DNA of 34,899 nt from Methylococcaceae bacterium (GTDB taxonomy: Bacteria > Pseudomonadota > Gammaproteobacteria > Methylococcales > Methylomonadaceae): NCBI GenBank assembly GCA_006844585.1, contig SPJM01000086.1:1-34899 (forward strand), given 5' to 3'. The translations under genes and the position numbers were made by a program. The notes under the pieces are model-generated. The model was not told where the DNA came from and ran no database searches. It was given only the letters and a program-made list of their open reading frames with translations. Shown here piece after piece: positions 1,569 to 18,127 of this stretch. Positions within the stretch are counted from its first letter, which is position 1; every line of letters starts with the position of its first letter.

Positions 1569-1572
1569 GTTT

Positions 1573-3125: not shown

Positions 3126-3586
3126 TGATGAATCGCTTATTGGCGCAGAGCTTAATGAAACAAAGAGGTGCGGCATTAATCGTCAGCATGCTGTTTTTGT
3201 TAATTATGACGGTGTTGGGCATCTCAGCAATGAATACCAATATCTTGGAAGAAAAAATGGTGACCAATTCGCGTTTTCAAAACTTGGCGTTTCAAGCGGC
3301 GGATAGTTGTTTAAGCCAGATAGCGGAAGATCCGGATAATTTCACATTTTTGTCCGGGTGGGAAGATGCGGGAAGCGGCTCTTTTGGCGTTAACGCTGCA
3401 AATAATTCGGCGGCATATACATCTCAGAGACAGTTTCATATGTTTGCCACGCCGCCTCGAAATTCAGGTTTCAGCGCTGTGAAATTTCAAACGGCGCATA
3501 ATCGATACATATGTTCAGGAACTTCATCAGCCAATAGTCAGGTAACGCTGAGACAAGGGATTTATCAAATTACACCCAAGTTTTAA
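3125..3586 (+). CDS. pilX: Type IV pilus assembly protein PilX
   Basis: The 153-residue protein begins with a short basic leader, then QRGAALIVSMLFLLIMTVLG and ISAMNTNILEEKM, the standard PilX N-terminus: a membrane helix followed by the LEEKM block. NLAFQAADSCL further supports the family. The TAATG overlap with pilW defines the start, and a second in-frame ATG lies one codon later. PilX typically pairs with PilY1, which is encoded 25 bases downstream. Confidence 0.88.
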   Translation: MMNRLLAQSLMKQRGAALIVSMLFLLIMTVLGISAMNTNILEEKMVTNSRFQNLAFQAADSCLSQIAEDPDNFTFLSGWEDAGSGSFGVNAANNSAAYTSQRQFHMFATPPRNSGFSAVKFQTAHNRYICSGTSSANSQVTLRQGIYQITPKF

Positions 3587-3611
3587 CAAAAGAAGTTGTG
3601 GGGAAAATATT

Positions 3612-6600: not shown

Positions 6601-8522
6601 GTTCAACAGCGCCTTCTGACGTTACCTTAAATGTAGCAAGCCATAAAGTAGAAATCGCCAACACAGCGCTAAGCAAAACTTTACTGGGCGATGCGGCAAT
6701 GAGCGACGCAGATCGAGAAGAGGTGATTAATTGGATTAGAGGTAAAGACGTTAAAGATCAAGATGAAGACGGTGCGGTTGATGATGATCGCTGGGTTTTT
6801 ACCGACCCGCTTCATGGCGGATCAGTCAGTATTACTTACGGTTATAAGCATACCGGTAGTGGAGCGACGATAGCGCCGGTTTTAGATGCGAACAGTAATA
6901 TTATTCCGATTACTAAATTATTGATCGGCTCAAATGACGGCACTTTGCGGATGATTAATTCAGATAGTGGAATAGAAGAGTGGGCGTTTATTCCTCAGAC
7001 ATTATTGGCTAATCAACAGGATTTGATGAATAACGCCAGCGGTGATCATGTCTATGGTTTGGATAATAGCGCCACTTATCGATTTTATGACGCAAACGGC
7101 AACGGGATCATTGAACCTACCGGTACGGATATTGATTTGGATGGCACCGTAGAAGATGAGGAAAAGGATTATGTTCATGCTTATATCAGTATGCGTAGAG
7201 GCGGACGGAATATTTATGCTTTAGATGTGACCCCTACCAGTACTATTACGGAACCCACCTCGACTACAACGATAAGCCCAAAATTGTTATGGCGTATTGA
7301 AGGCGGTAGTGGAGATTACACCAAACTCGGACAAACCTGGTCTAAACCTCAAGTTGTAAAAATGTGGGTCAAATCCGGTTCAGATTCTTATCGAAAAGAT
7401 GTACTGATCTTTGCAGGCGGCTACCATACCGATCAGGACAGCAGTTTTGGTGTTTCCGGTTATGGAAATGCAATTTTTGTAGTGGATGCTGATGACGGTT
7501 CTTTAATTTGGTCGGCCAGTGATTCCGGCGCCGATTTGAATTTTACCGATATGGTTTATCCCATACCTTCTGATTTGGCGGCGTTGGATAGCGATGGCAC
7601 AGGCGTAGTAGATAGAATATATTTTGGCGATATGGGGGGACAAGTCTGGCGTATTGATTTCATCAAGTCGTTCAGTTTAACCGGTAGTAACAGCAGTGTG
7701 GCGGAAGGCGGTATTCTTGCTAAGGTTTCTGACAGTTCAGATATCAATAAACAACGTAAGTTTTTTTATCCGCCTGATGTTGCTCAGGTTGACGATTCTG
7801 TTTTTTCATCAACAGCCTTATATGATTTGATTGTTATCGCTAGCGGAAACCGGGCTAATCCGTTGAATACCGATGTGCATGATAGAATTTATGCGTTCAG
7901 GGATTATCGTGTTCGCACTAAATCAGATGATGCATCTGATACAGAACCAGTCGTACCTGTAATACCTATTCGCGATAACTCTATTGCAATCGATGAAGAT
8001 AATGATGGTACGGCGGATGAAAATTTATTTGATGCGACTGAAAACTTGATCCAACAAGGTGACGCCACAGAAGTTGCTGCTGCAAAAACGGATTTAATTG
8101 ATAAAAAAGGGTGGTTTATAGACTTGAAAGAATATGATGGCAGCTGGATAGGTGAAAAGAGTTTGGCTACTCCGCTGATAGTGGGAGGAAAATTGTTTTA
8201 TACGACTTATGTGCCGGGTTTAGCTTCTGCAGATCCTTGCGATGTGCAGGTGGAAGGCGGCGGTCGCGTCTACGCGGTGAATATGTTAACCGGCGCCGCT
8301 GAATTTAATTGGTATACCGGCGATGCTAATGCCGCAACTGATTTGACCGAAGAAGATAGACGGCAAGGTTTGGGTTCCGGCATACCTTCTGAAGCAATTG
8401 CCATTTTTCAGCCAACCGGCGTATCTGTTTTAGTGGGGAGTGGTGGGGGAGCAACGACGATAGACCCCGATGTTGGTTTACCCAAAAGCAGAACCTTTTG
8501 GTCTCAGGATAGCATTGAATAG
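3612..8522 (+). CDS. pilY1: PilY1-type pilus tip adhesin with modules inserted in its vWA domain
   Basis: This is a 1636-residue exported protein with a signal peptide at about 1-25. A von Willebrand A domain opens with the MIDAS motif DTSSSM (about residue 50) and resumes near 773 with NHIILLSDGYPS. Between them, at about 167-655, lie three related modules of 130-165 residues, each with QTVGLRFQ-like, PDLxxxVQEIV and SGSGKR-like/SYDG blocks. A partial leader copy (DDAEEA) stands at about 128. The C-terminal PilY1 beta-propeller follows, with LIGSNDGTLRMINSDSG near 1103, an Asp-rich candidate calcium loop near 1160, and YFGDMGGQVWRIDF near 1336. PilY1 sits at the pilus tip and governs adhesion, pilus dynamics and surface sensing. 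The protein is longer than typical PilY1 (about 1100-1200 residues), and the inserted modules account for the extra length. GGGGA 8-12 bases upstream serves as RBS. Confidence 0.9.
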   Translation: MKMLKQIVQSQLLALLLFSSASMQADDTEIYLGGNNNNSGIKPNVLFVLDTSSSMTNEDGTGITRLDRMKTALHQILDSANNINVGLMRFHREGGPVLYPIADIDADISTVEGAGASGTLVNSYISQSSDDAEEANTAVTLDSSQLEMTYLSGAAGTSTIEVRVSSTNDDAEEKASNGSMYLDSTDLELIKDSGDQLVGIRFQSVAIPAGSTINSAEIEFEIDEQKSDTTNLTIHGQLHANPGAFSSTSDDISVRTTTSNSAVWTSVPNLTVNSKLTTPSLTAIVQEIVDQGGWASNNAMVFIITGSGKKTVESYDGESSAAPLLRVEYTTAAATPADQTVGLRFQSIDVPQGATITSATLEFQAQGSESGTTSLTIYGEDEDDTSTFSTASSDISSRTQTTASVSWTPGAWTDGANYQSPDLTAVVQEIVNRSGWCGGNSMTFLIEGTGLRKAKSYDVSATNAPLLSIDYDESSVSAGDCINASLQRQIAAGNDDAEEASDGTMDLTSTDLEMVEESTTQTVGLRFKNIDIPQSATILEASVTFIVDETNSTATSLTINGEKSGDAASFSSSSNNITGRPLTTAAVAWSPGSWSTIGESHETPDIKTVIQEVVNQGTWASGNALALIISGSGKRVADSYDGEPINSAVLKVKIQGQLGSGSKTVRSRLKDIVDEINWKSGTPIVDTLYEAALYYRGDDVFYGKTRGNSANAGTSLDRSEYTRLSHTASYTGGSIVRTGSCTEDNQNHVDCKTEYISGTATYESPISESCQANHIILLSDGYPSVNTSESLVETMIPGTCAGSGSGKCGVELLDHLYTTDQIAEAIHTGDQTIKTYTIGFEILASGKAYLEDLAAAGGGQFYEASTSADLVNAFQDIISDILVRPTSFSAPALTVNAFNKLYHNNEVYFSLFLPSDTKRWDGNVKKFAVCEGNPGDSCSKGEIIDVNDALAIGSNSRIKTTAQSYWSSGIDGVEVTVGGAGDEVPAYGSRRVFTYTGSTAPSDVTLNVASHKVEIANTALSKTLLGDAAMSDADREEVINWIRGKDVKDQDEDGAVDDDRWVFTDPLHGGSVSITYGYKHTGSGATIAPVLDANSNIIPITKLLIGSNDGTLRMINSDSGIEEWAFIPQTLLANQQDLMNNASGDHVYGLDNSATYRFYDANGNGIIEPTGTDIDLDGTVEDEEKDYVHAYISMRRGGRNIYALDVTPTSTITEPTSTTTISPKLLWRIEGGSGDYTKLGQTWSKPQVVKMWVKSGSDSYRKDVLIFAGGYHTDQDSSFGVSGYGNAIFVVDADDGSLIWSASDSGADLNFTDMVYPIPSDLAALDSDGTGVVDRIYFGDMGGQVWRIDFIKSFSLTGSNSSVAEGGILAKVSDSSDINKQRKFFYPPDVAQVDDSVFSSTALYDLIVIASGNRANPLNTDVHDRIYAFRDYRVRTKSDDASDTEPVVPVIPIRDNSIAIDEDNDGTADENLFDATENLIQQGDATEVAAAKTDLIDKKGWFIDLKEYDGSWIGEKSLATPLIVGGKLFYTTYVPGLASADPCDVQVEGGGRVYAVNMLTGAAEFNWYTGDANAATDLTEEDRRQGLGSGIPSEAIAIFQPTGVSVLVGSGGGATTIDPDVGLPKSRTFWSQDSIE

Positions 8523-8524
8523 AT

Positions 8525-9010
8525 ATGAATATCAAACTAAGAAACAATTCAGGGTTTACTTTAATGGAACTAATGGTGACTTTGGCGGTTGCAACTATAT
8601 TGGTTTCATTAACTTATCCATCCTATCAACAGTATGTGATCAAGTCTCGTCGGGCTGATGCAAAGGGGGCTTTACAATCGTTTGCCAATGAAATGGAACG
8701 ACATTATACGGTGAATGGGAGTTATTTAGGGGCGGGAACCCTCAATAGCAACAATGACGGCCCGCCTTCTATTTTTGCTACACAAGCGCCATTAGACGGC
8801 GGTACGCCATATTACAATTTAACTATACGTCCTTCTACCGGCGGTACGCCAGAAACTACAGCGGATACTTTCGTACTCCGCGCTACCCCCATATCCGGCA
8901 CCACTCAGGAAGATGACGGATATATGGAAATTACCCATACTAATCTTAAACGCTGGGATGCCAACAATGATGGCGATACAGCGGATAGCGGCGAGGATAA
9001 ATGGCAGTAA
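8525..9010 (+). CDS. pilE: PilE-like type IV pilin (minor pilin)
   Basis: The 161-residue prepilin has the cleavage site NSG|FTLMELMV (Glu5 present), a hydrophobic helix, then YPSYQQYVIKSRRADAKGAL, the usual PilE alpha-1 continuation. The C-terminal part is rich in Gly, Asp and Thr and ends DKWQ. The ATG is 2 bases after the pilY1 stop, so it closes the operon. Its position next to pilY1 suggests a minor pilin of the tip complex rather than the major fibre subunit, but the sequence alone does not settle this. No terminator is obvious after it, and the element's left end begins only about 44 bases downstream. Confidence 0.85.
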   Translation: MNIKLRNNSGFTLMELMVTLAVATILVSLTYPSYQQYVIKSRRADAKGALQSFANEMERHYTVNGSYLGAGTLNSNNDGPPSIFATQAPLDGGTPYYNLTIRPSTGGTPETTADTFVLRATPISGTTQEDDGYMEITHTNLKRWDANNDGDTADSGEDKWQ

Positions 9011-9053
9011 ATCTCTATTTTTACTTGCCTTGAAACAGCCTGTGGGAGTTTAT

Positions 9054-9070
9054 TCTATATTCTGAATCTG
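9054..9070 (+). repeat. attL core (17-bp direct repeat)
   Basis: TCTATATTCTGAATCTG is identical to 17095-17111. With the preceding bases (TTTAT here, TTTAC on the right) 21 of 22 bases match. Read on the minus strand it encodes QIQNIE then TAA, the displaced tail of yicC, with one synonymous difference (GAA for GAG). Confidence 0.88.
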
Positions 9071-9130
9071 AATATTGAGTGAGCAATTAAGTTATTGAAT
9101 ATTAATAAATAATATTTTTATAAAGAGTTT

Positions 9131-9151
9131 TTGGTACACGCATTGGTACAC
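9131..9151 (+). repeat. Left arm-type integrase sites (2 x TTGGTACAC)
   Basis: TTGGTACAC occurs at 9131-9139 and 9143-9151, 12 bases apart. The same pair with the same spacing occurs near the right end at 16963-16983. Short repeats inside both ends, apart from the core, are typical of arm-type binding sites for lambda/P4-type integrases. Confidence 0.65.
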
Positions 9152-9345
9152 ATAATTTAAGGGTTCCCCTGACTTTTTATGATATTGGATAACATAAGGC
9201 TTGTGATTTTTACATGGCAATACCTGCCGGAAGAATGCTTGAGTTTTCAAATTCTGTGAATTCCCCGTAATATACCTTTGTGATTCGTTTTATCCCGCAT
9301 AAAAATTAAATAAGAATAGTTCACAAATGAAATTTAATACTTTTA

Positions 9346-9522
9346 ATGAATAAACACGAAATCGCCGCTTTTAATGAAGCAGCTGAAGCGTATATTGAAA
9401 TGTTCGGCGGTAGTTTACCGCTTGGAATTGGTATGCCGAATTTAACCACGGAACTTTTGCAAAAGGCAGTGGCTGACAAAAAACCGATTGAATCAAACAC
9501 TCCGCCCGGCGCTTTAAGCTAA
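9346..9522 (+). CDS. Small hypothetical protein at the left end of the element
   Basis: A 58-residue frame runs from ATG 9346 to TAA 9522. It begins MNKHEIAAFNEAAEAYIEMF, contains GGSLPLGIGMPNLTTELLQK and ends PPGALS. The composition is protein-like, with a predicted amphipathic helix at residues 4-20 and then a Gly/Leu/Pro-rich turn. No good Shine-Dalgarno is visible, and an overlapping 8-codon frame starts at 9327 and ends at 9353, which could couple translation. It converges with the Mor-like gene. I do not recognise a family. Confidence 0.45.
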   Translation: MNKHEIAAFNEAAEAYIEMFGGSLPLGIGMPNLTTELLQKAVADKKPIESNTPPGALS

Positions 9523-9553
9523 CTCAGGTCTCATGATTTTAAGCCTTTGCCGG

Positions 9554-9886
9554 TTAATTTCCTTTAGTTTTCCGATTCATTTTCTTAATAATTTTCCTTA
9601 TCCACACATGAGACAACCCAAATTTAATGGCAAGTTCGTCGTAATTCTTACCATTAAATTGATGCATGATTTCTTTGTCTCGCGCACTGTTTTTAAAACT
9701 ATCTAAATACTTACTGCCCGGAATGTATATATGAGACCCTTTCCAATTGTTAATCAAGGCTTCTGCCGCCTCAATAGCAGCTTCATGAGCTAAGGTATCA
9801 TCAATACGATTATTGATAAGAGAAGTATTAATGACCTCGAACACTTCAAGTAGTAACGGCGGGTAATCTTTTTTAGATAATGGCAT
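9554..9886 (-). CDS. Mor-family transcription activator
   Basis: The 110-residue protein resembles the Mor/C family of phage Mu middle and late activators, which bind DNA as dimers and recruit RNA polymerase. The diagnostic part is the C-terminal half: YIPGSKYLDSFKNSARDKEI, then FNGKNYDELAIKFGLSHVWI and RKIIKKM, the family's beta-strand linker plus helix-turn-helix (about residues 55-105). The N-terminal helices, with NNRIDDTLAHEAAIEAAEAL, would form the dimerisation domain. It is the last gene of the leftward operon, 10 bases after the head gene. By analogy it may turn on the element's late genes or respond to a helper phage. That role is inferred. Confidence 0.85.
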   Translation of the reverse strand: MPLSKKDYPPLLLEVFEVINTSLINNRIDDTLAHEAAIEAAEALINNWKGSHIYIPGSKYLDSFKNSARDKEIMHQFNGKNYDELAIKFGLSHVWIRKIIKKMNRKTKGN

Positions 9887-9896
9887 AAGCCCTCCG

Positions 9897-10793
9897 TTAT
9901 TCTAACCAAGGCGCAACAATCAATTTCGCAGTTCCAGCCCATTGGTTACTCACTGATACGCCGCCATTAATAATCAATTCATTCTGAATCAATGCCAAAG
10001 CATCGCTTTCCAGTGAAGGCGGAACCACCAAAGTATCCGGCTTAATATTCAATTTTCGTCCTTCATCGCCATTCAATGACATCATTGCTGCTCTGGCTGC
10101 TCCATAATTGGCGGCATCTAATGCGCCTTTTGAAGCATAGGCCAATTGCCATAAGCCAAAACCCGCATTCACACGCGCCCGAATTCCATACAGATATTCA
10201 TCACGCATAAAAACATTTTCGTCTTCATCGTTGGTCAAGCTGGTCAATTTATAAGGGATACGCTCCTGAAACAATAACGGCTTGATAGCGCGACTGGTAT
10301 CCAGTAAAAACCATGCTGGCCCAGCTCCAGCTTGCATATTGCTAACGCTGGCCGGATTGTTGACGCCAACCGGATGATCTGTATCAAAGAAATATTGCCC
10401 GTCATAACAAGCAGTGGTAAAACCAGCCGCCAACAAAGCAAAAATCAGCTCATCAGGATGTTCCCCGGATACTCGGCCCATTTCCGTCATCAACGGCCCC
10501 ATCAAGCCGTAATTATCATCCTCAATATCCGTTCGTTTGACGCGAATACTCTCTTCATACAGCTTATTTTTTACCGTATAAGAATGAGCCACCAAGTTTT
10601 TAAGGGTTCTATCGCCAAGCCACTCTCTGAGTTTGGGGAATTGTCCCAACCAAGCATAGGTTTCTTCGGCAGCCTTTGAAGGCATGACCATAGCGACTTC
10701 CTGAAAATGGCTATTGGCGCTATCCAGGCCCTTGTTAAAGGCGGTATTGAAACCTTGAAATAATTGTCCTAAATTTGTTTTGTTCACTAACAT
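9897..10793 (-). CDS. Mu-like prophage major head subunit (gpT family)
   Basis: This is a 298-residue capsid protein of the phage Mu gpT family, close to the roughly 305 residues of Mu gpT. Shared blocks in order are GLDSANSHFQEVAMVMPS, YAWLGQFPKLREWLGDRTLK, IEDDNYGLMGPLMTEMGR, HPDELIFALLAAGFTTACYD, GQYFFDTDHPVG, WFLLDTSRAIKPLLFQER, NAGFGLWQLAYASKG, and GRKLNIKPDTLVVPPSLE. It would form the icosahedral shell. It follows the protease by 2 bases, the same order as in Mu (I/Z then T). The frame is intact with no sign of decay, which suggests the protein is still under selection. Confidence 0.92.
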   Translation of the reverse strand: MLVNKTNLGQLFQGFNTAFNKGLDSANSHFQEVAMVMPSKAAEETYAWLGQFPKLREWLGDRTLKNLVAHSYTVKNKLYEESIRVKRTDIEDDNYGLMGPLMTEMGRVSGEHPDELIFALLAAGFTTACYDGQYFFDTDHPVGVNNPASVSNMQAGAGPAWFLLDTSRAIKPLLFQERIPYKLTSLTNDEDENVFMRDEYLYGIRARVNAGFGLWQLAYASKGALDAANYGAARAAMMSLNGDEGRKLNIKPDTLVVPPSLESDALALIQNELIINGGVSVSNQWAGTAKLIVAPWLE

Positions 10794-10795
10794 GG

Positions 10796-11305
10796 TTATT
10801 TTCCTTCCCCGTATTTTTCAACGTCTGCTTGGCTCAATCCTAAAGAATCGTATATTTCAACAGTACCGGTTTTTCTTTCATAGGGTTCATCCAATAAAGC
10901 ACGTTCTTCAGCCGTTAACCGATCTGTTTGGCAGGTTTGTATAAACCCATAAATTGTTTTAATACTACCGACAAATTCATCAAAAGCTTGGGCATCATGG
11001 CGACACATGGAAACACCCCATTCTCTTAATTTAGGCGGCAATAAGTGATTATTAATAGCGTCATCCACTTTCGCCAGCACCGTATGTTCGGTGGCTGCTT
11101 GTAAATCTTCCACAACTTGCTTGAACTCACCTAATGGAACATATTGAGCTGGATCCGGCTTTGATGAATTTTGTGTTGTTAACAGTTTTTTAAGAGCCTC
11201 TGAAACATCCGCTAAAGTGGCGTTTTCTTCCAAACCTAATAATTGAATCAATTCGGATAAATCTGGCTCAGCAGACTGTGAGTTACTGTTATCGTTGTCG
11301 TTCAT
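10796..11305 (-). CDS. Probable nested scaffold protein (Mu gpZ-like), in frame within the protease gene
   Basis: An in-frame ATG at 11305 within the protease gene is preceded by AGAGGA, 4 bases upstream, a strong Shine-Dalgarno. It would give a 169-residue protein starting MNDNDNSNSQSAEPDLSEL, Asn/Asp-rich then helical. Mu makes its scaffold gpZ in exactly this way from an internal start within gene I, so the same arrangement is likely here. The sequence shows the start signal, and production of the protein is inferred. Confidence 0.6.
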   Translation of the reverse strand: MNDNDNSNSQSAEPDLSELIQLLGLEENATLADVSEALKKLLTTQNSSKPDPAQYVPLGEFKQVVEDLQAATEHTVLAKVDDAINNHLLPPKLREWGVSMCRHDAQAFDEFVGSIKTIYGFIQTCQTDRLTAEERALLDEPYERKTGTVEIYDSLGLSQADVEKYGEGK

Positions 11306-11770
11306 GTTGTCCTCTGCTTTAGCTAAAGCGGTCATCTCAAGAGCGGGATTGTTGGTTAATGCGGCGCGTAAAATACGAATAATCTTGCCGTCTTTTGTAT
11401 GCTGCATGACTGGGGATAGGTATTTGTATTCTTTACTACGCAAGAAATCTATTGCCTTGTCCGTCCACTCCACTAAACCCCAAATACCATCAGAACGCAC
11501 CTCCAAACCTTCAACCCAACCTGCAGCGGGAGCCGGTTGGCCATTTTTTTCGGCTAAATCTATTTGGTGTTCATAATCCACCGGCAATAAGTTTTTACCG
11601 GCATATTGTTGGGTGGCGAGAACCACTCGGTCAGGGTCAGATAATTGCCAAGGTCCGCGACCGTCACGCCCTTGAAATTGACCAGAAGGAAGAAGGTGAA
11701 CCCATTGCTTAAGCGGGTTGTTGTCGGTGGCATCGGTTTTCAATGCCACCGTGATAGATGATGCTTCCAT
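10796..11770 (-). CDS. Mu-like capsid maturation protease (gpI family)
   Basis: The 324-residue protein matches the Mu-like prophage I protease. The N-terminal half carries WVHLLPSGQFQGRDGRGPW, NLLPVDYEHQIDLAEKNGQP, PAAGWVEGLEVRSDGIWGLV, EWTDKAIDFLRSKEYKYLSP and the RAALTNNPALEMTAL tail, all standard in the family. Mu-type proteases cleave the scaffold during head assembly. The C-terminal half (after about residue 155) is acidic and helical like a scaffold, and has its own internal start (see separate entry). It begins with ATG at 11770 after a weak GGAA and is probably transcribed with the head gene. A dyad symmetry lies just upstream. Confidence 0.9.
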   Translation of the reverse strand: MEASSITVALKTDATDNNPLKQWVHLLPSGQFQGRDGRGPWQLSDPDRVVLATQQYAGKNLLPVDYEHQIDLAEKNGQPAPAAGWVEGLEVRSDGIWGLVEWTDKAIDFLRSKEYKYLSPVMQHTKDGKIIRILRAALTNNPALEMTALAKAEDNMNDNDNSNSQSAEPDLSELIQLLGLEENATLADVSEALKKLLTTQNSSKPDPAQYVPLGEFKQVVEDLQAATEHTVLAKVDDAINNHLLPPKLREWGVSMCRHDAQAFDEFVGSIKTIYGFIQTCQTDRLTAEERALLDEPYERKTGTVEIYDSLGLSQADVEKYGEGK

Positions 11771-11776
11771 GTTTCC

Positions 11777-11804
11777 GTAAACCAGTTTAAAAACTTCGGT
11801 TTAC
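11777..11804 (-). promoter_or_regulatory. Dyad symmetry upstream of the capsid genes (possible activator site)
   Basis: GTAAACC at 11777-11783 and GGTTTAC at 11798-11804 form a 7-bp inverted repeat enclosing the smaller AGTTT/AAACT palindrome. It lies 7 bases before the protease start codon, in the 66-base gap to the preceding gene. It could be a hairpin in the leader or an operator for the Mor-like protein. The second idea is only an inference. Confidence 0.35.
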
Positions 11805-11836
11805 CTTAACAAGGATATGCAGAAAACAAGATTAAA

Positions 11837-12052
11837 CTACTTTACAAACTTATCCATATCGGTAAACAAATCCAATTGCAGGCGTGTTTCACTCTGTTCC
11901 GGTAAGAGCCTGACCAATTGTTGTTTATGTTGTTTGATGGCGGCTATCCATTCATCGGATGCGTTCTCAATTTTAATATTCCCCTCTATTCGGGTTAAGG
12001 TAATGCCATTCCTTAGCGCAATTTCTATAAATAAGCGCGGTTCGAATTTCAT
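11837..12052 (-). CDS. Small TubC docking-domain-like protein
   Basis: This 71-residue protein has the pattern FIEIALRNGITLTRIEGNIK followed by IAAIKQHKQQLVRLL, which resembles the small TubC-type N-terminal docking fold often annotated beside primase and replication genes on mobile elements. A TAGGT sits 6 bases before the ATG. It follows the RecA-fold ATPase by 8 bases, so a role in replication of the element is possible but not shown. Confidence 0.6.
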   Translation of the reverse strand: MKFEPRLFIEIALRNGITLTRIEGNIKIENASDEWIAAIKQHKQQLVRLLPEQSETRLQLDLFTDMDKFVK

Positions 12053-12060
12053 TTTTTTAC

Positions 12061-13380
12061 CTAAACGATTACATTGGATTGTAGTTGTTTTTCAGTGCAT
12101 TTTTTTTCCAGGTGCTCATTCTCAACAACATGAGCATCTGGGGTATTCTGACCACCCTCTAGGCCTTTATTTATCTGGGGTTCTCCCAGATGCTCATTTG
12201 TTTGTAACGGGGTTTGAGCATGTGGGGTTTTTTCGGCTTCAGGAAGCCGCCAATACCATTTTCCTTTTGGCGATTCTCGAAACGATTCTACGCCTAATTC
12301 GCTTTTTGCTCTCTTAATGGTTGCTCCGGAATAACCTAATAATTCAGCTTCCTTTGTCACTTCATTTGAAAGCAAAGCATCATTGCCCAATAAATCAATA
12401 ATAAAACGTTTAGCCTCCTCTATTTGGCTATTTTCAGACCGCCTTACTGGCGCATTCAATGCTTCATCCGCAGTCATATTGACTGGTTCCGGTTCCCATT
12501 CAACCTTCGAGGTACTTATTCCACTATCTAGCGTACAGTCCACAATTGAAAACGCCAACCCTCCCGTATCCTTAGCCAAGTTGTTTTTTAAAGGTAATAA
12601 CAATCTCCTTTCAGGGTTATTTTTATCTTTAATTACTATAAAGGCAGCTCTGGAAGCAGCCACAAATGCCATACTTCCATTAATTCTGTTTAAAGCATCT
12701 TTAGAGATACTTTTGTTTAAATGTGAAACTGCCAAAATAGCCAAATCATTTTTTTCGGCAAAATCCCCTAAAGGCGATAGCATCGCCCTAACATCAGAAT
12801 TTTTATGGCTATCCACTCCCCCCAAATAAGCGGTAATTGGATCAATAACAATTAATCGAACGTTTCCTATTTCCTTTACCATTTTTTCTAATCGTTCCAA
12901 ATCATTTTTTAAGCTAAAAGAACGCCTGATAACCTGGCCAGTTTCATTTTTTTCCATTACGGCATCCAATATCGCTATTTTGCTTAAATCCGCATTCACA
13001 GCTCTTAATCTAGGACGTATTGTATCGGCTGCATCATCCTCAGCCGATAAAAAAATGACCGCCCCAGGCTTGCATTTCCCAAAATCAACCGGCCAATAAA
13101 CGCCTTGGGTTATTATTCCTGCTAAAGCGGCAGTAATTTGGCTTTTACCTAAGCCTGGGTCGCCAGCCAACAGTGTAACCTTTCCACAAGCAATCCTTCC
13201 TGGCCATAAGAACTCAATTGGCTTTTCCTCTACTGCATCCATCATGCGATAAGCGACCGAAGTGGAATACTGACCGACGCCCGCTCTCTTGCCACCGACG
13301 TTTGTTTCCTTTGGTTTAGGATTAGATTTCCTTAATTGTTCTTCATGGTTTTTTATTGCTTTTTCCTTGAGTTTGTTCAT
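12061..13380 (-). CDS. RecA/RepA-like AAA ATPase, probable replication helicase of the element
   Basis: The 439-residue protein has a RecA-type core at about residues 45-285: Walker A GDPGLGKSQ near 75, SAEDDAADTIRPRLRAV, Walker B LIVIDPITAYLGG near 165, and AVSHLNKSISKDALNRINGS with MAFVAASRAAFIV. This is the AAA_25/RepA-like family used as a replicative helicase or initiator on plasmids and satellites. The C-terminal third has an HTH-like segment (VTKEAELLGYSGATIKRAKS with ESFRESPKGKWYWRL) and a low-complexity tail. The ATGA overlap with the preceding gene sets the start, with GAGGTG as RBS. It has no primase domain like the P4 alpha protein. Confidence 0.85.
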   Translation of the reverse strand: MNKLKEKAIKNHEEQLRKSNPKPKETNVGGKRAGVGQYSTSVAYRMMDAVEEKPIEFLWPGRIACGKVTLLAGDPGLGKSQITAALAGIITQGVYWPVDFGKCKPGAVIFLSAEDDAADTIRPRLRAVNADLSKIAILDAVMEKNETGQVIRRSFSLKNDLERLEKMVKEIGNVRLIVIDPITAYLGGVDSHKNSDVRAMLSPLGDFAEKNDLAILAVSHLNKSISKDALNRINGSMAFVAASRAAFIVIKDKNNPERRLLLPLKNNLAKDTGGLAFSIVDCTLDSGISTSKVEWEPEPVNMTADEALNAPVRRSENSQIEEAKRFIIDLLGNDALLSNEVTKEAELLGYSGATIKRAKSELGVESFRESPKGKWYWRLPEAEKTPHAQTPLQTNEHLGEPQINKGLEGGQNTPDAHVVENEHLEKKCTEKQLQSNVIV

Positions 13381-13673
13381 TTTGGCACCTCTTCGTCCTC
13401 AAAATGCCTACGGTTTTGCCAATAATCATGAAGGATAACAATAGCGTCCTTAATCTCCAGCTGAAGCACCTTAACGACCTTTTCCAAATTCTCATAATCA
13501 ATTTCATGATACGGTGTCGGCCCTTGAGCCAAACAAGCAGCATCGCCAATAAAACCGGCTATGCCTTCGGCCTTATGTAAAACAGTCAACATTTCATCAA
13601 TGAAGGAATCGTCTTGAAAACGTTGGTTGATTAACGTCTGATTGGCTTTTTTTGTCCGAGTTACTTCACTCAT
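13377..13673 (-). CDS. Hypothetical small protein of the element
   Basis: The 98-residue protein starts MSEVTRTKKANQTLINQRFQ, contains EGIAGFIGDAACLAQGPTPY, and has a helical C-terminal half. No family is recognised. It overlaps the upstream gene at TAATG (13673) and the ATPase downstream at ATGA (13380), so it belongs to a tightly coupled operon. An AGGTGA lies just before the ATG. It has no membrane segment or signal peptide. Confidence 0.65.
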   Translation of the reverse strand: MSEVTRTKKANQTLINQRFQDDSFIDEMLTVLHKAEGIAGFIGDAACLAQGPTPYHEIDYENLEKVVKVLQLEIKDAIVILHDYWQNRRHFEDEEVPK

Positions 13674-13897
13674 TACTCACCTGCCTTTTGCATGCGGTCA
13701 AACTTAATACGGGCAAATGGGTAACAGATCAACAAAGCCAAGGCCTCATAAAAATCCAAATTATTTTGTATGATTTGCCGATTCTCGGTCTTTGGGTGAA
13801 TGCTGACCAGTTTAAAAACGGCTTTTAAATGGGTTTTACTCGGCGAATAAAAAGCATTTTTTGCCGGAATCTGAAAACTGTTATTGAATTGGCTCAT
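13673..13897 (-). CDS. Hypothetical small protein of the element
   Basis: This 74-residue basic protein contains YSPSKTHLKAVFKLVSIHPK and ALALLICYPFARIKFDRMQK. No family is recognised. It overlaps both neighbours (ATGA at 13894-13897 and TAATG at 13673), and GGGGGTGA precedes the start. The coupled translation argues that it is a real gene. Confidence 0.62.
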   Translation of the reverse strand: MSQFNNSFQIPAKNAFYSPSKTHLKAVFKLVSIHPKTENRQIIQNNLDFYEALALLICYPFARIKFDRMQKAGE

Positions 13898-14166
13898 ACC
13901 TCACCCCCACCGAATGCCATGTTATAAAATTCTGAATGGGCGGTGTCCAGGGCGATTAATTCGGCAACGGTTAGTTGATTAATTGATTTGCCGGTTTCAG
14001 CAATTCGGCGCGCCAGTCCAACGGTGTAATGACAATTTGATTCGGCTATGCCGCCGATAATTTGAGCCGCTTCAATGAGCTGTAGCTCTTCGGTTAATAG
14101 AATGGATGAGTTTTCAATTGCTTTGACGCCCTGAGTTTTGGACGGTTTTGGGGTAGGGTTACGCAT
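13894..14166 (-). CDS. Hypothetical protein of the element
   Basis: The 90-residue protein includes LTEELQLIEAAQIIGGIAES and GLARRIAETGKSINQLTVAE, and is mostly helical. A clear AGGAG lies 8 bases before the ATG at 14166. It starts right at the end of the structured leader and overlaps the end of the Ash/Icd-like frame, so it is the first gene after that control region. No function is assigned. Confidence 0.65.
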   Translation of the reverse strand: MRNPTPKPSKTQGVKAIENSSILLTEELQLIEAAQIIGGIAESNCHYTVGLARRIAETGKSINQLTVAELIALDTAHSEFYNMAFGGGEV

Positions 14167-14506
14167 TGCGGTTTCTCCTGTAGTGTAGATAACCGCCGCC
14201 CTTTGGTTGCAATCGCAGGGTGGCGGACTGTACTAGGTTGCAACAACCGGCTACAGGAACCGGCCAGCTCGAAAGCTGCCCAATACAGCCCACCATAACG
14301 AATATGCGCCGGATAAACTCCGGAAGCATGAAATTTAAGCGGAATAATCCCGCTATTTTTGGTGGGCATAAAAAAACCGCGAGAAATGCGGCCTTTTGGC
14401 CTGTAGTGTTCGGGGTTGCAATCCCGACTTTCGTTTTTTGCGAAAGCATTGACAGGTTACCGGCATGGCGTTTTCCTGTCAATGCTGATATAGTAATTTG
14501 CAACAT
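14159..14506 (-). CDS. Ash/Icd-like leader frame of P4-type satellites
   Basis: The 115-codon frame contains TKVGIATPNTTGQKAAFLAV, then FVMVGCIGQLSSWPVPVAGC and QSATLRLQPKGGGYL. From memory, this matches proteins annotated as Ash family or host cell division inhibitor Icd-like in P4-like elements, which end in a similar GCCNxVQxATxRLQPKGGG tail. An AAGGA lies 9 bases before the ATG. The DNA is full of inverted repeats, so the conservation may reflect RNA structure as much as protein. Whether the peptide is made, or inhibits division, is unknown. It overlaps the next gene's start. Confidence 0.6.
   Translation of the reverse strand: MLQITISALTGKRHAGNLSMLSQKTKVGIATPNTTGQKAAFLAVFLCPPKIAGLFRLNFMLPEFIRRIFVMVGCIGQLSSWPVPVAGCCNLVQSATLRLQPKGGGYLHYRRNRNA
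14193..14244 (-). ncRNA. Candidate structured leader RNA (P4 CI-RNA-like region)
   Basis: CCGCCGCCCT at 14193-14202 pairs with AGGGTGGCGG at 14217-14226 (one mismatch or wobble), placing GGTTGCAAT (14205-14213) in the loop. Related copies occur at 14236-14244 (GGTTGCAAC) and 14414-14422 (GGTTGCAAT). P4 immunity relies on a small RNA pairing with repeats in the same leader to cause premature termination. The layout here suggests an analogous system, but no homology to CI RNA itself is shown. Confidence 0.35.
14371..14391 (-). terminator. Possible intrinsic terminator or attenuator within the leader
   Basis: On the minus strand CCGC (from 14391) and GCGG (to 14377) form a short stem with a 7-nt loop, followed by six or seven T residues (complement of 14371-14376). 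It falls inside the Ash/Icd-like frame, upstream of the replication genes, so it could act as the conditional terminator of a P4-like immunity system. Confidence 0.4.
14446..14485. repeat. 11-bp perfect inverted repeat near the start of the leader
   Basis: GCATTGACAGG at 14446-14456 is the reverse complement of CCTGTCAATGC at 14475-14485, with an 18-base spacer. A second hairpin, CTTTCG (14428-14433) with CGAAAG (14441-14446), adjoins it. These are candidate operator or RNA structures of the element's control region. Confidence 0.6.
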
Positions 14507-14590
14507 GGAGTGGTTCCTTTAGCGGGGAAATTGACCGGCCAATCTGGGGAGATACGACCGGAATTATGGAAGTGACGAATTAAAAAACGG

Positions 14591-14803
14591 CTATGGTTTC
14601 CAATTTTTATCCACGGAATAGGAAGCAAAGCCGTTTTTTTTATTGCGAGTGGTGATAATCGGCCAACCACGTTTTCTTAGTCGATCAATAATAGATGCAA
14701 GCCGAGTGATGCAATAATCTTTGAAAGCTGTAACGCTTGTCACCTCTTTCCCATCCAGCAAGGCTTGCTTGATGATTTCAATTTGGGTCGTTTTATTCTT
14801 CAT
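14591..14803 (-). CDS. Small helix-turn-helix protein
   Basis: The 70-residue protein reads TQIEIIKQALLDGKEVTSVT, then ITRLASIIDRLRKRGWPIIT and NGFASYSVD, the pattern of the HTH_39-type domain often found in satellites and islands. GGAGG stands 4 bases before the ATG. Its start overlaps the previous stop (ATGA). It is probably a DNA-binding regulator of the element, upstream of the structured leader. Confidence 0.72.
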   Translation of the reverse strand: MKNKTTQIEIIKQALLDGKEVTSVTAFKDYCITRLASIIDRLRKRGWPIITTRNKKNGFASYSVDKNWKP

Positions 14804-15141
14804 GAACCCTCCAAAATTGACTTTTTTATTTCATCTATTTCTTTGAGTTGCCTAATTTCGTTTTCAGCAAGAAAATTTAGTGTCAATAAATAACCAAGCC
14901 TCTCAAGCTGTTTTTTATATTTTAAATAAGTTTTTGGCGAGATACCGACACTTCGAAAGCGCTTAGTTTCAAAATCAACTTTTTGGCAGTATCGGCCTAA
15001 TGCACTTTTGCTAATGTTGAATCCCTTTTTATCCAACCATCTTTTTAAGGCCAGTTGAGAATCGTAATTTTCAATTATTCTTTGGTCTAACTCTGTTTTG
15101 ATGGATTTTGGTAATTTATAAACTGATGAGCGCCTACCCAT
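14800..15141 (-). CDS. Mu gp27-like (DUF3486-type) HTH protein
   Basis: The 113-residue protein begins MGRRSSVYKLPKSIKTELDQ and continues LALKRWLDKKGFNISKSALG then RYCQKVD, the signature start of the phage Mu gp27-like family: a short basic N-terminus and a helix-turn-helix with SxSxLGRY. In Mu, gp27 is regarded as the small terminase-type subunit. A strong GGAGG lies 6 bases before the ATG, and the gene overlaps alpA by 8 bases. Here it could be a packaging-specificity factor or simply a regulator. The family call is fairly firm, but the role is open. Confidence 0.68.
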   Translation of the reverse strand: MGRRSSVYKLPKSIKTELDQRIIENYDSQLALKRWLDKKGFNISKSALGRYCQKVDFETKRFRSVGISPKTYLKYKKQLERLGYLLTLNFLAENEIRQLKEIDEIKKSILEGS

Positions 15142-15400
15142 GATTGACCTCCGTATTAATTTTATTCATCCAGGCATGTATGTCTTCGGCTCTCCATGCA
15201 GTTACGTTTTCAGATAATTTTATGGGTTTTGGAAAAGTACCTTGTTTTACTTTCCGCCATATGGTCGATGCGCTAAATGGAATGAAAGTGATTAACAGAG
15301 ATAATCGAATATAACCATTTTTTGGTAGTTCTTTTGATGTGTTTTGTGAGTTTTGATGATTTGTTTCTGTAGTCATTGGCGTGTTCAATTTGATTAACAT
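15134..15400 (-). CDS. alpA: AlpA-family excisionase/regulator
   Basis: The 88-residue protein carries the AlpA pattern: NGYIRLSLLI, FSASTIWRKVKQGTFPKPIK and ENVTAWRAEDIHAWM, a winged helix-turn-helix of the MerR/excisionase type. AlpA proteins activate integrase or act as excision factors in P4-like elements. The first ATG (15400) is used here. A second ATG eight codons later is also possible and would remove a variable tail. Its upstream region holds four helically phased 11-bp repeats. Confidence 0.85.
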   Translation of the reverse strand: MLIKLNTPMTTETNHQNSQNTSKELPKNGYIRLSLLITFIPFSASTIWRKVKQGTFPKPIKLSENVTAWRAEDIHAWMNKINTEVNHG

Positions 15401-15469
15401 CGCCAGCTATCCTATAGCACGGTGTAGCTTAATGGTATTAAAGGAGTTTACAAAATTAAGGTGTTTTTT

Positions 15470-15513
15470 TTAAACGTTAGTTAAACACTATTTAAAACCC
15501 TGTTAAACGTAAA
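15470..15513. repeat. Four tandem 11-bp repeats starting TTAAA(A/C), upstream of alpA
   Basis: Units start at 15470, 15481, 15492 and 15503: TTAAACGTTAG, TTAAACACTAT, TTAAAACCCTG and TTAAACGTAAA. The 11-base period places each copy on the same face of the helix. They lie 70-113 bases upstream of the alpA start, between it and the integrase gene, so they may be operators or replication iterons. Confidence 0.6.
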
Positions 15514-15563
15514 CCATTAAAATATAGGTTGAAAAAAAATTATTTGACCGGCAATGAGTGCCG

Positions 15564-15590
15564 AATATAGAGATATTGTATTTCTATATT
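15564..15590. repeat. 8-bp inverted repeat between integrase and alpA
   Basis: AATATAGA at 15564-15571 and TCTATATT at 15583-15590 form a perfect inverted repeat with an 11-base spacer, downstream of the integrase stop. It may be an operator or a weak hairpin. A smaller CGGCA/TGCCG hairpin adjoins it. Confidence 0.4.
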
Positions 15591-15641
15591 TCGATCATGA
15601 TTTTGCCCTATGGAGGGAATCAGGTAGGCTTTGATTTGGTA

Positions 15642-16898
15642 TTAAGCCGTTTTTGTATCAAAAGGTATAATGTTAAATGTTTGGTTCTCTTCACAAGCTT
15701 CTATAAAGTTACCTAGTGCCTGCAAGGCTTGTTTTCGTTCATCATAGTAATCGTATCGGTCATAAACGCCTTCCACGCCTTTAATTTTATGATTTAAGCA
15801 ACGTTCGCCGACATGGGAGGGGAAACCCAAAGAGCCAATAATTGTTCTGGCCGTGCGCCGGAAATCATGAATGGTGAAAGGGTCAATGCCTTCCATTAAT
15901 GGCGTTACTTTTTTTAAGGCCACATTCAAGGTGCTTTCTGAAATGTAAGGCAGTCGCCTATCTTGGCTTTTTCTGGCAGGAAGTAGCCACTCCTGACTAT
16001 CTGAGAGTGTAAGCAGCTCATTTAAAGCGCTAATGGCCTGGGAGGGTAAAGGAATGATGACCGATAACCCGGTTTTACTACCCGTTAGTTGCCATTCGCC
16101 TTTCTCAAGATCAAAGTCGCTTTTACGCGCCCGGCAGAGTTCATTTTTTCTCACGGCAAGTATGAGTAATAACTTAATCGTCAGTAGATTGGTTCGGGAA
16201 AATCCTTTGGCCAGGTGCATAGCTTCAAATAATGCGGTAATTTCCTCTTTGTTTAATGAACGTTCTCGCGAGTTTTCTTTGCCGCCTGCATCGTTAATAT
16301 CAAAAGCGGCCGCCGGATTGTATTGCACAATATGCCTTTTGATTGCGTAGTCAAACATGTGTTTTAGAATTCGTAAAACATCGTTCGAGACGGTTGGCGC
16401 CCCACGATTCACAATCGCTTTTAAAATTTCATCAATATGCAAGGGCTTAACCAGGTCAACCGGCATATGGCCAATATAGGGCTTAATATCTTTTTCAATT
16501 TTCGATCTGATGATATTAGGATGCTTCCAGTGTCCCATAATGCGGTCGCTAAAATATTTATCCGCCAATTGTCCTGCTGTAAATGCGTTGGCTTTTGCTT
16601 CGATTTGTTCGATGGCTTGTTTTTTTCGTTCTTGCTTTTCGGCGGTTACATCATGACCAAGTGACACTTTGGCGGCTAATTCCTTAACCGCCTTTCGCGC
16701 TTCAGCGAGTGACATTTGGTTGTAATTGCCTATTTGCATTTTTCTTTGTTTACCGGCGAAACGATACCGGTAATTCCAAACAGGTGTCGTGAACGATTTT
16801 CTATAGCTTAAAAAAAGCCCATTACCGTCCGCTTTGCCTTCAAAGTGGGTACCGCTTTTTATCCATGCTCTTATTTGGGCGTCTGTTAACTTTGCCAT
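15642..16898 (-). CDS. int: P4-type tyrosine integrase
   Basis: The 418-residue site-specific recombinase has an N-terminal DUF4102-like arm-binding region (residues 1-90, with TDAQIRAWIKSG, FRYxF-like strands and MSLAEARKAVKEL), a core-binding domain (about 105-205), and a catalytic domain with R250 (LAVRKNEL), H344-xx-R347 (HDFRRTAR), H370 (CLNHKIKG) and Y379 (VYDRYDY) as the likely nucleophile. It integrates and excises the element at the 3' end of yicC. The gene points inward from the right end, about 200 bases from attR. GTGTACCAA sites lie in its promoter region, so it may autoregulate. Confidence 0.93.
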   Translation of the reverse strand: MAKLTDAQIRAWIKSGTHFEGKADGNGLFLSYRKSFTTPVWNYRYRFAGKQRKMQIGNYNQMSLAEARKAVKELAAKVSLGHDVTAEKQERKKQAIEQIEAKANAFTAGQLADKYFSDRIMGHWKHPNIIRSKIEKDIKPYIGHMPVDLVKPLHIDEILKAIVNRGAPTVSNDVLRILKHMFDYAIKRHIVQYNPAAAFDINDAGGKENSRERSLNKEEITALFEAMHLAKGFSRTNLLTIKLLLILAVRKNELCRARKSDFDLEKGEWQLTGSKTGLSVIIPLPSQAISALNELLTLSDSQEWLLPARKSQDRRLPYISESTLNVALKKVTPLMEGIDPFTIHDFRRTARTIIGSLGFPSHVGERCLNHKIKGVEGVYDRYDYYDERKQALQALGNFIEACEENQTFNIIPFDTKTA

Positions 16899-16931
16899 AA
16901 CTGAGTCTCGTATAAATCAAGGGCTTTGAGT

Positions 16932-16983
16932 GTGTACCAAAAAAAGTGTACCAATTGAAGCTTTGGTACACGTCTTGGTACAC
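16932..16983 (+). repeat. Right arm-type integrase sites (4 copies of TTGGTACAC or its complement)
   Basis: GTGTACCAA occurs at 16932-16940 and 16946-16954, and TTGGTACAC at 16963-16971 and 16975-16983. The direct pair keeps the 12-base spacing seen at the left end. The cluster lies between the integrase start and attR, which fits arm-type binding sites that also cover the integrase promoter. Confidence 0.65.
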
Positions 16984-17027
16984 ATAAATTATGCTATTTA
17001 GTGGGATTAGGCGCAACAGGGAGACAC

Positions 17028-17049
17028 AAAAAAACCGCTAACTTAGCGG
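17028..17049 (-). terminator. Terminator downstream of yicC, inside the element
   Basis: On the minus strand CCGCTA and TAGCGG form a 6-bp stem with a 3-nt loop, followed by seven T residues (complement of 17028-17034). It ends the yicC transcript about 40 bases past its stop, and lies on the element side of attR. Confidence 0.75.
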
Positions 17050-17090
17050 CTTCAGAGAGGTTGTGATATGGGGTGATATGGTGTGACTCT

Positions 17091-17954
17091 TTACTCTATA
17101 TTCTGAATCTGCTCGCGCATTTGTTCGATAAGCACTTTCAGGTCAATAGCGATTTGAGTCATTTTTATGTCTTGTGATTTGGAGGCGAGCGTGTTTGCCT
17201 CCCTATTCATTTCCTGCATCATAAAATCCAGGCGTCGGCCGATAGCTTCATTTTGTTCGATTAATCGTTGAACTTCAGCGACATGCGCTTGCAAGCGATC
17301 TAATTCTTCTGCGACATCCATTTTTTGCGCTATAAATAATAATTCTTGTTCAAGCCGTTCGGTATCCGGTTCCTGTTGTAAAGAATCAATCCGCGACAGT
17401 AATTTTTCCCGGATTTGGGTATGTACTAATGGCAGTCTGTTTTCTGCTTCCTGCGCTAATGTCATGATGTTAGCGCAACGTATTGAGATGAGTTCTTTTA
17501 GTTTTTCGCCTTCTCTTGATTTGGCATCAATTAGTTTTGGCAGCACTGACTTAATTAAATGAGCGGTATTTTCTGATAAAGTATTCTTATCTATTTCGGT
17601 TTCTTTCCTGATGCCGGGGAAAGCTAAAATGTCGAGCGGAGAAAAGGCTTTAGATGCGCCCATCAATTGCTCTATAGCACCTGTAGCGTCTAAGAGGCTT
17701 TTAATAGCTTGCTGATCTATATCAAAAGATTCATGATGAGTTTGTTTTTTGATGGTTATCGCGCATTCTATTTTCCCGCGTTTTACTTTACTATTGATTG
17801 CTGATCGTAAATCCGATTCTAGATAACGCAGACTTTCCGGTAATTTAAAGGAAATGTCGCAATAGCGGTGATTAACAGAACGCAGTTCACAATTTAAAGT
17901 TAAATTATCAATTTTAATTTCGCTATTGGCGAAGGCTGTCATACTTTTTATCAT
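17091..17954 (-). CDS. yicC: YicC-family endoribonuclease
   Basis: The 287-residue product equals the usual YicC length if translation begins at the ATG at 17954 (MIKSMTAFANSE). The open frame extends 18 codons further upstream, but that part is unlike the family. Conserved blocks are ELRSVNHRYCDISFKLPESL, LLSRIDSLQQEPDTERLEQE, DVAEELDRLQAHVAEVQRLI and the end KVLIEQMREQIQNIE, nearly as in E. coli. YicC proteins are RNA-cleaving enzymes linked to stationary-phase survival and small-RNA turnover. The 3' end is the attachment site of the element. Confidence 0.92.
   Translation of the reverse strand: MIKSMTAFANSEIKIDNLTLNCELRSVNHRYCDISFKLPESLRYLESDLRSAINSKVKRGKIECAITIKKQTHHESFDIDQQAIKSLLDATGAIEQLMGASKAFSPLDILAFPGIRKETEIDKNTLSENTAHLIKSVLPKLIDAKSREGEKLKELISIRCANIMTLAQEAENRLPLVHTQIREKLLSRIDSLQQEPDTERLEQELLFIAQKMDVAEELDRLQAHVAEVQRLIEQNEAIGRRLDFMMQEMNREANTLASKSQDIKMTQIAIDLKVLIEQMREQIQNIE
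17095..17111 (+). repeat. attR core (17-bp direct repeat) in the end of yicC
   Basis: Identical to the left core at 9054-9070. On the minus strand it is the codons for QIQNIE, the conserved C-terminus of YicC, so integration leaves the gene intact. Confidence 0.88.
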
Positions 17955-18127
17955 TTGTTTTGTAAAATATAACCTTGTAAAAAAATGTAAAAAGGGAAAG
18001 AATCCCATTTCAAAGGTAATATACTAATCTATCTGAAACTCACTGAGGATACAACTGAATAACTTTATTAATTTTTTACACCCTTAGGTTAAGCAGAAGG
18101 ATTGAAATTTAGGATGATTTAAGTAAT

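Follow-up and report, generated by a model that had tools for sequence, protein, structure and literature searches.

A putative P4- and PICI-like satellite of Mu-like phages with its own Mu-type head genes in a Methylococcaceae genome

The stretch of DNA examined here (34,899 bp, positions 1 to 34,899 of contig SPJM01000086.1, assembly GCA_006844585.1; "the window") derives from a Methylococcaceae bacterium and carries an 8.04-kb element between two copies of a 17-bp direct repeat. We read this element, with a probability of roughly 0.6, as a mobile satellite of a Mu-like helper phage, resembling P4 and the phage-inducible chromosomal islands (PICIs), whose own major head protein (gpT) and scaffold-protease would serve to construct a small capsid or to divert assembly towards one. 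The observations behind this reading are the gene content, the repeat boundaries, the intact frames, purifying selection, membership in a gpT lineage without portal genes, and the finding of no Mu portal or terminase in the assembly. From these we infer the identity of the helper, the size of the capsid, packaging, excision and every regulatory step.

The proteins of the window were scanned with Pfam and PHROG profiles, the Pfam scan taking in 16 open reading frames (ORFs), and RNAs were sought with Rfam (Table 1). The gene set reported in the first-pass annotation of this DNA, i.e., an integrase, an AlpA-type regulator, a P4-type leader and a RecA-type ATPase, together with a Mu-type protease, gpT and the activator Mor, all between attachment repeats, is present in full, intact and on the minus strand, and the leader corresponds to a C4 antisense RNA with an isrK-like RNA. 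Of the 13 ORFs of the element only one of 58 amino acids (aa) lies on the other strand, int and alpA sharing the minus strand with the rest, and many adjacent genes overlap or sit a few bases apart in an operon-like manner. The gpT match spans positions 2-289 of the 289 of its Pfam profile, and the protein has relatives of solved structure in the PDB (best E 1.4e-107). The protease is matched by PHROG 328 over residues 8-321 of 324, contains the blocks VDYEHQ, YLSPV and AALTNNPALEMTAL, and has a C-terminal region that presumably serves as scaffold.

As had been stated before, no match to portal, large terminase (TerL), tail or lysis families was found among the window proteins scanned, and searches of the window with purpose-built terminase, portal and Mu F profiles were likewise negative. 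Its gpT is the only one in the whole assembly. No Mu portal was found in this assembly, nor in the genomes G006 and G115, which hold two related gpT loci (L126 and L128, respectively), and the same three assemblies yielded no Mu-type TerL, with a query that gave 466 bits in genome G220. The Mu portal search across the order was positive in 40 of 311 genomes; one Mu portal search of the window assembly, G006 and G115 matched no control genome, its positive control being a separate portal search.

The gp27-like protein requires a narrower description than it had been given: it indeed matches Mu gp27, but only the N-terminal third of that protein, and its identity as a small terminase (TerS) was rejected as only positions 1-59 of the 173 of profile PF11985 are matched. 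Because of this partial match, and because the same N-terminal domain is fused in L128 to a relative of the helix-turn-helix (HTH) protein HTH_39 of the window, we read it as a putative DNA-binding protein and not as a terminase. In contrast, the fragment L187 has a full gp27 (positions 1-172 of 173) directly before its protease and gpT.

The copies of the repeat bounding the element lie 8,041 bp apart and are exact over 17 bp, or agree in 21 of 22 positions when one mismatch is tolerated. In 300 shuffles of the two repeat-bearing stretches, the longest shared word was on average 9.6 bp and at most 13 bp. The right copy forms the end of a host gene which, following the first-pass annotation, we take to be yicC; a homologue was present in 12 of the 13 genomes searched (own genome counted), and its 3' end is conserved among relatives. 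The TTGGTACAC copies at the ends of the element resemble integrase arm sites and are candidates for this function.

Table 1. Features of the element and its integration target (positions in the window; aa, amino acids).
Feature	Position	Strand	Evidence
attL, left copy of 17-bp direct repeat TCTATATTCTGAATCTG	9054..9070		exact repeat of 17095-17111
Two TTGGTACAC repeats inside left end, candidate integrase arm sites	9131..9151		word search; putative function
58-aa ORF, function unknown, convergent with element operon	9346..9522	+	ORF list; no family match
Mor-family transcription activator, 110 aa	9554..9886	-	PF08765 1.7e-21; PHROG 532 late transcriptional activator 6e-25
Mu-type major head protein gpT, 298 aa, full length	9897..10793	-	PF10124 (Mu-like_gpT) 1.8e-124; PHROG 371 major head protein 9e-123
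Mu gpI-type head maturation protease with C-terminal scaffold region, 324 aa	10796..11770	-	PF10123 (Mu-like_Pro) 4.4e-63; PHROG 328
71-aa protein	11837..12052	-	40% identity over 70% of length to L128 protein (tblastn); no Pfam/PHROG match
AAA_25 RecA-fold ATPase, presumed replication helicase, 439 aa	12061..13380	-	PF13481 8e-34; PHROG primase/helicase matches
98-aa protein, no assigned function	13377..13673	-	ORF list; no match over cut-off
74-aa protein, no assigned function	13673..13897	-	ORF list; no Pfam/PHROG match
90-aa protein, no assigned function	13894..14166	-	ORF list; no Pfam/PHROG match
C4 antisense RNA (P4-type immunity RNA)	14216..14300	-	Rfam RF01695, 74.7 bits (cut-off 45), model 1-87 of 87
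isrK-like RNA, upstream of C4	14370..14447	-	Rfam RF01394, 50.9 bits (cut-off 50, just over)
Winged-HTH protein HTH_39, 70 aa	14591..14803	-	PF14090 1.2e-8; PHROG 4973
Protein with N-terminal domain of Mu gp27, 113 aa	14800..15141	-	PF11985 3.2e-10, profile positions 1-59 of 173
AlpA regulator/excisionase family, 88 aa	15134..15400	-	PF05930 1.6e-9
Tyrosine integrase, 418 aa	15642..16898	-	PF13356 (Arm-DNA-bind_3) 3e-19, PF22022, PF00589 3.2e-16; PHROG 1 6.6e-61
TTGGTACAC at right end, two direct and two inverted copies	16932..16983		word search; putative function
Host gene yicC (presumed name), integration target	17091..18008	-	homologue search and 3'-end comparison
attR, right copy of direct repeat, inside yicC 3' end	17095..17111		exact repeat of 9054..9070

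Both gpT and the protease are under purifying selection across their relatives. The proportion of nonsynonymous differences (pN) was 0.19-0.31 in gpT, against a proportion of synonymous differences (pS) of 0.68-0.91 (10 pairs), and 0.33-0.47 against 0.75-0.88 in the protease (6 pairs); since the synonymous sites of gpT are saturated in all pairs but one, these values only bound dN/dS, well below 1. The comparison of the window with L126 (pN 0.19, pS 0.75 in gpT) agrees with the earlier argument that intact frames speak against simple decay of a prophage. We consider it unlikely that the head genes are functionless remains, caught by recombination from a Mu-like prophage. Such an origin would be consistent with the single copy of the cassette, the lack of a helper in the assembly, the absence of gpT from all five congeners, the visibly broken cassette of the relative L136 (protease split, gpT interrupted) and the weak conservation of Mor among relatives, but it fits poorly with pN being far below pS in both genes across the group, and with frames that are all intact and, judged by eye, preceded by good-looking ribosome-binding sites for gpT and Mor (less so for the protease). 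Furthermore, head genes of one gpT group occur both with integrase and C4 RNA and on transposition backbones, and the order protease-gpT-Mor is not one left by simple deletion of a Mu prophage.

From VDYEHQ to the stop codon the protease measures 260-273 aa in the four copies of the window group. The 58 loci with portal or terminase to which these were compared, near-identical ones being kept separate, have a median of 295.5 aa (quartiles 285-306, 10th percentile 274.8, minimum 247). A shorter protease would fit a smaller scaffold.

A match to the gpT family was obtained in 30 of the 311 genomes of the order searched, with the best scores for G115 (L128), the window, G091 and G006 (L126). Identity to the window gpT is 71-72% for L126, 66% for L137, 62-63% for L128, 62% for L001 and 51% for G091. 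The most similar gpTs found (62-72% identical) thus also lie in loci without portal or terminase, whereas in G091 (L127), unlike L126 and L128, both genes stand beside gpT. The first-pass annotation had suggested a search for relatives with similar gene sets and no other phage genes, and relatives with similar gene sets do exist, although their cassettes vary. Full Mu-like prophages among the close relatives, which would have spoken against its reading, were not encountered in L126, L128 or L001: neither a Mu portal nor a Mu terminase turned up in the respective assembly or record. Perfect 55-bp repeats enclose the 9.3-kb island of L128, which contains an integrase, the gp27N-HTH fusion, a C4 RNA, a primase-like protein, Mor, a virion structural protein (PHROG 1731) and gpT. 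L126 is a Mu-like transposition element with a CI-type repressor, a MuA-like transposase (PHROG 310, 2.5e-37; no Pfam match), a MuB-like protein (PHROG 296, 1.5e-40), GemA, Mor, protease, a PHROG 1731 virion structural protein and gpT; it also contains a tandem duplication (positions 3971-5007, 737-bp spacing) in which a 99-aa gene recurs together with the last part of GemA. The cassette of L001, in a 55.8-kb record in which no portal or TerL was found, consists of a late-activator-like protein (PHROG 836), a tape measure, protease and gpT. In L137, a contig of 8.3 kb, C4 and isrK RNAs lie upstream of Mor, accompanied by a tail chaperone, a tape measure, a gpG-type protein, a PHROG 1731 protein, protease and gpT. 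L155 carries a tape measure protein as well; together with L270 (record G677) it lies on one 51.9-kb contig with two gpTs that are 52% identical and 29 kb apart, possibly a helper and a satellite side by side.

Trees of gpT were constructed from 42 sequences (IQ-TREE) and 91 sequences (FastTree), the broken L136 being excluded. They place the window in a group of nine with L126, L128, L137, L001, L155, L187, L188 and L212 (SH-like approximate likelihood ratio test 95.1 and ultrafast bootstrap 88 with 42 sequences; FastTree 0.79 with 91), and no portal, TerL or F was found in the DNA examined around the own gpT locus of any of the nine. Within this one group the head genes sit on an integrase/C4 backbone in L128 and on a transposition backbone in L126. 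Tentatively, and at slightly less than even odds, we propose a distinct lineage of Mu-head satellites, on both C4 RNA/integrase islands and natural mini-Mu elements (MuA/MuB-like). Such satellites would themselves provide the parts setting the size and identity of the virion, namely the major head protein and scaffold-protease and, in some, also a full-length small terminase or a tape measure with tail chaperone, and would depend on Mu-like helpers for the motor, portal, tail tube and lysis. L188 and L212 have gpT before the protease, the reverse of the Mu order, following GemA (L188) or a Mu-type transposase (L212).

Several further loci combine capsid or satellite genes in other ways. L150 (positions 612-8562 of an 8.6-kb contig) comprises a repressor (by eye), MuA, MuB, two small ORFs, Mor, gpT, a tail fibre and a tail-fibre chaperone, and is a candidate mini-Mu satellite bringing its own tail fibre. 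Beside the broken Mu-type cassette of L136 lies a second island (5654-13301) with an integrase, an int-alpA RNA, a PrimPol replication protein and a lone HK97-type capsid gene (PF05065), by its gene content another satellite-like island that carries a capsid gene. L130 (10069-19770) is an integrase/AlpA/isrK/C4/AAA_25 island resembling that of the window but without Mu head genes; in their place it has GHKL- and TopoVI-like genes (by eye) and, at the contig end, a ClpP-type protease.

A survey of gpT loci with 6.5 kb or more of upstream DNA (106 loci, near-identical phages kept separate; 9 duplicate loci, loci with a best gpT score below 80 bits and 96 loci with less flank excluded) yielded portal or TerL in the DNA examined for 90 loci and neither for 16. 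At the level of the genome or record, 4 of these 16 were overturned: the satellite reading was rejected for L131 (G220) and L133 (G117), whose genomes have gpT and a portal on opposite strands about 20 kb apart, for L041, whose record shows the same arrangement, and for L176, in whose record a portal lies elsewhere (L177 seems to be the same locus as L176). Four loci stand, i.e., the window, L126, L128 and L001. No portal was found on the contigs of L148 (11.6 kb) and L245 (13.2 kb), and the remaining portal-less loci of the survey (L226, L238, L152, L162 and L209) were judged on their flanks alone. G220, G117, G078 and G099 (L131, L133, L248) represent Mu-like phages with a rearranged genome plan, with some 20 kb between gpT and a portal on the other strand; in G220, TerL lies beside the distant portal, and in L131 Mor adjoins the protease. 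Such loci show how an autonomous Mu-like phage, with its packaging genes elsewhere or missed in assembly gaps, could be mistaken for a satellite. For the element of the window this is very improbable: it is closed by repeats and no portal or TerL lies within them, L128 is likewise closed by its 55-bp repeats, and the whole assemblies of the window, G006 and G115 yielded neither gene.

The signature IKPxxFQERxPY was also searched, as degenerate DNA, in genome and viral collections. Four stretches were found in the genome collection, two being gpT (on the contigs of L126 and L128) and two from Ignavibacteria without gpT (L140, L141), and three in the viral collection, all three gpT and including the broken L136. 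A less strict version of the pattern matched 25 stretches, of which 22 were new; in the DNA examined for these, portal or TerL was present in 8, Mu F alone in 3 and neither in 11, many of which are short.

Homologues of capsid proteins are already known from satellites, i.e., Ccm of SaPIbov5, a Staphylococcus aureus pathogenicity island (SaPI), and the capsid-like protein of PmCI172. The latter, a PICI of Pasteurella multocida, has a Mu-like helper and forms small heads as seen by electron microscopy (PMC6092414; PMC6893505). The role of its capsid-like protein is given there as unknown, and the mechanism behind its small heads is called undetermined (PMC6893505). PmCI172 and EcCICFT073 both encode capsid-like proteins and are classed as PICIs (PMC6092414). 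The earlier statement that capsid-carrying satellites are only of siphophage type, with packaging genes, is thus not supported, as PmCI172, which encodes a capsid-like protein, forms its small heads with a Mu-like helper. The element shares with PmCI172 and PmCI86 the satellite island, a capsid-like protein and, presumably, the Mu-family helper, but no protease-scaffold, Mor or C4 RNA is mentioned for PmCI172 in the accessible text of these papers. Ccm is a homologue of the helper capsid protein, with only 23% identity to it (PMC6893505), that occupies pentamers and alters the size and shape of the capsid (PMC8569155). The element resembles it in carrying a major capsid protein, here of Mu type and without a portal, which may likewise be a homologue of the helper's protein. 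SaPIbov5 differs in being a staphylococcal cos-type SaPI that works through pentamers, and no protease or activator is known to accompany Ccm.

That the element makes its own shell unaided, as first proposed, is not supported over co-assembly with the gpT of the helper in the manner of Ccm, the two fitting about equally; in L128, moreover, gpT occurs without a protease. In this version of the satellite reading, for which we see a substantial but less than even chance, the gpT of the satellite would enter helper capsomers and force the formation of small heads, with the protease-scaffold tuning assembly. It agrees with the altered capsids brought about by Ccm in helper pentamers, with the small heads that PmCI172 makes with a Mu-like helper, and with the presence in L128, L150 and L148 of gpT but no Mu-type protease. 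However, the window also carries the protease and scaffold, and its gpT has the full length and the strong conservation of a shell protein that suffices by itself, whereas Ccm is only 23% identical to the protein of its helper. The protease-scaffold in the cassette leans towards an own shell, the relatives with gpT alone towards co-assembly. Alternatively, gpT and protease may mainly act as a decoy that spoils helper heads, which would protect host or element but leave the latter unpackaged. Satellites often lower helper yield through altered heads (PMC6893505) and the element has no complete TerS or other recognisable packaging function, but Mor and the scaffold-protease, in relatives also the tape measure and chaperone, exceed what a poison needs, and we regard this explanation as quite improbable.

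The C4 RNA belongs to P4 and marks P4 immunity, and the P4 delta protein is a homologue of the late activator of P2 in particular. Of the P4-like components (listed, with delta as a homologue of the helper's late activator, in PMC8628076), the element has the tyrosine integrase (PF00589, 3.2e-16), an AlpA family protein (PF05930, 1.6e-9) and its own replication protein, in addition to the C4 RNA (74.7 bits), and its Mor probably parallels delta. It differs from P4 in having an AAA_25 replication protein, and its own head genes, apparently in place of Sid and Psu. Among the 16 window ORFs there was no Pfam match to the P4 alpha primase-helicase (PF03288), psu (PF07455) or delta (PF04606); for epsilon/Ash (PF10554) an ORF at 14159-14506, overlapping C4, scores 13.2 bits (E 0.12), under the cut-off of 26, and for sid, which was identified with a custom profile in PMC8628076, no suggestive Pfam or PHROG match was obtained. 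Of the traits of Gram-negative PICIs (PMC6092414), the element shows the integrase, the alpA-type regulator and, save for the 58-aa ORF, unidirectional transcription, while at 8.04 kb it falls below their typical size of 12-15 kb. With Mu-like phages it shares gpT, the gpI-type protease, Mor and the gp27 N-domain, all of the Mu family, but it has a site-specific integrase, and no transposase, portal, terminase, tail or lysis genes were found in it. Capsid-forming PICIs (cfPICIs) are satellites that produce their own capsids (PMC11389934), as the element may do. They also carry a portal, TerL, TerS and adaptors together with their capsid and take tails, and the lack of a detectable portal or TerL sets the element apart from them.

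If the element is a satellite, its cycle may be envisaged as follows. The integrase would insert it at the 3' end of yicC, where a C4 RNA/AlpA circuit would keep it quiet, and the AAA_25 ATPase would take part in its own replication. Once a Mu-like helper is active, gpT, the protease-scaffold and Mor would be expressed, and gpT and the protease-scaffold would form a small head of Mu type, either by themselves or together with gpT of the helper, for which the helper would supply the portal, packaging motor, tail and lysis. Mor probably plays the role of P4 delta, switching on late genes of the helper, the satellite or both.

A number of points weigh against the satellite reading. The particle, the excision and the induction are all deduced from genes. 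No helper was found in the assembly of the window, and the five congeners in the genome set also lack gpT and Mu portal; these are draft assemblies, of 376 contigs for the window, about 80 for G006 and about 210 for G115 (87% complete), in which gaps are possible. An empty site was not seen in the stretches compared, as relatives keep the same yicC 3' end but none has the left flank of the window adjoining it. Since the gp27-like gene is not a full TerS, the packaging specificity is left unexplained. The Mor copies are only 24-33% identical (6 pairs; pN 0.50-0.54, pS 0.76-0.88), which indicates that Mor is not inherited with gpT as one conserved unit; the Mor genes may have been acquired separately. 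The shorter scaffold may reflect lineage, not function, with some phages having an even shorter one. The absence of a Mu-type protease from L128, L150 and L148 fits badly with an own shell as the common function. Support for the group of nine is modest (0.79 in FastTree), and its inner node of seven members receives 0.975 in FastTree but only 41.7/49 in IQ-TREE. In L126, gpT is followed by about 900 bp without an ORF over 59 aa and then by the contig end, and no integrase was seen in the cassette of L001. The contig of L155 holds a Mu-like packaging/head module with its own gpT 29 kb away, which leaves L155 a candidate only, and L137, L187, L188 and L212 are contigs of 4.5-8.3 kb; short or mixed DNA makes L155, L187, L188 and L212 weak members of the group.

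A search of the literature, covering titles and the openings of abstracts, with subscription papers mostly outside its reach, found no description of a satellite with Mu gpT genes or of a natural mini-Mu satellite. Satellites are known to reshape helper heads with small proteins, to employ a capsid homologue (Ccm, possibly PmCI172) or to carry a whole head-and-packaging module, as in the cfPICIs. If our reading is correct, the element fills a gap between these strategies, with a shell, a scaffold-protease and an activator but without portal or motor, and L126, on its MuA/MuB-like backbone, would be a natural mini-Mu satellite. It would further imply that the shell of a satellite can accept a foreign portal and terminase, and the mechanism by which small Mu-type heads are formed would become testable.

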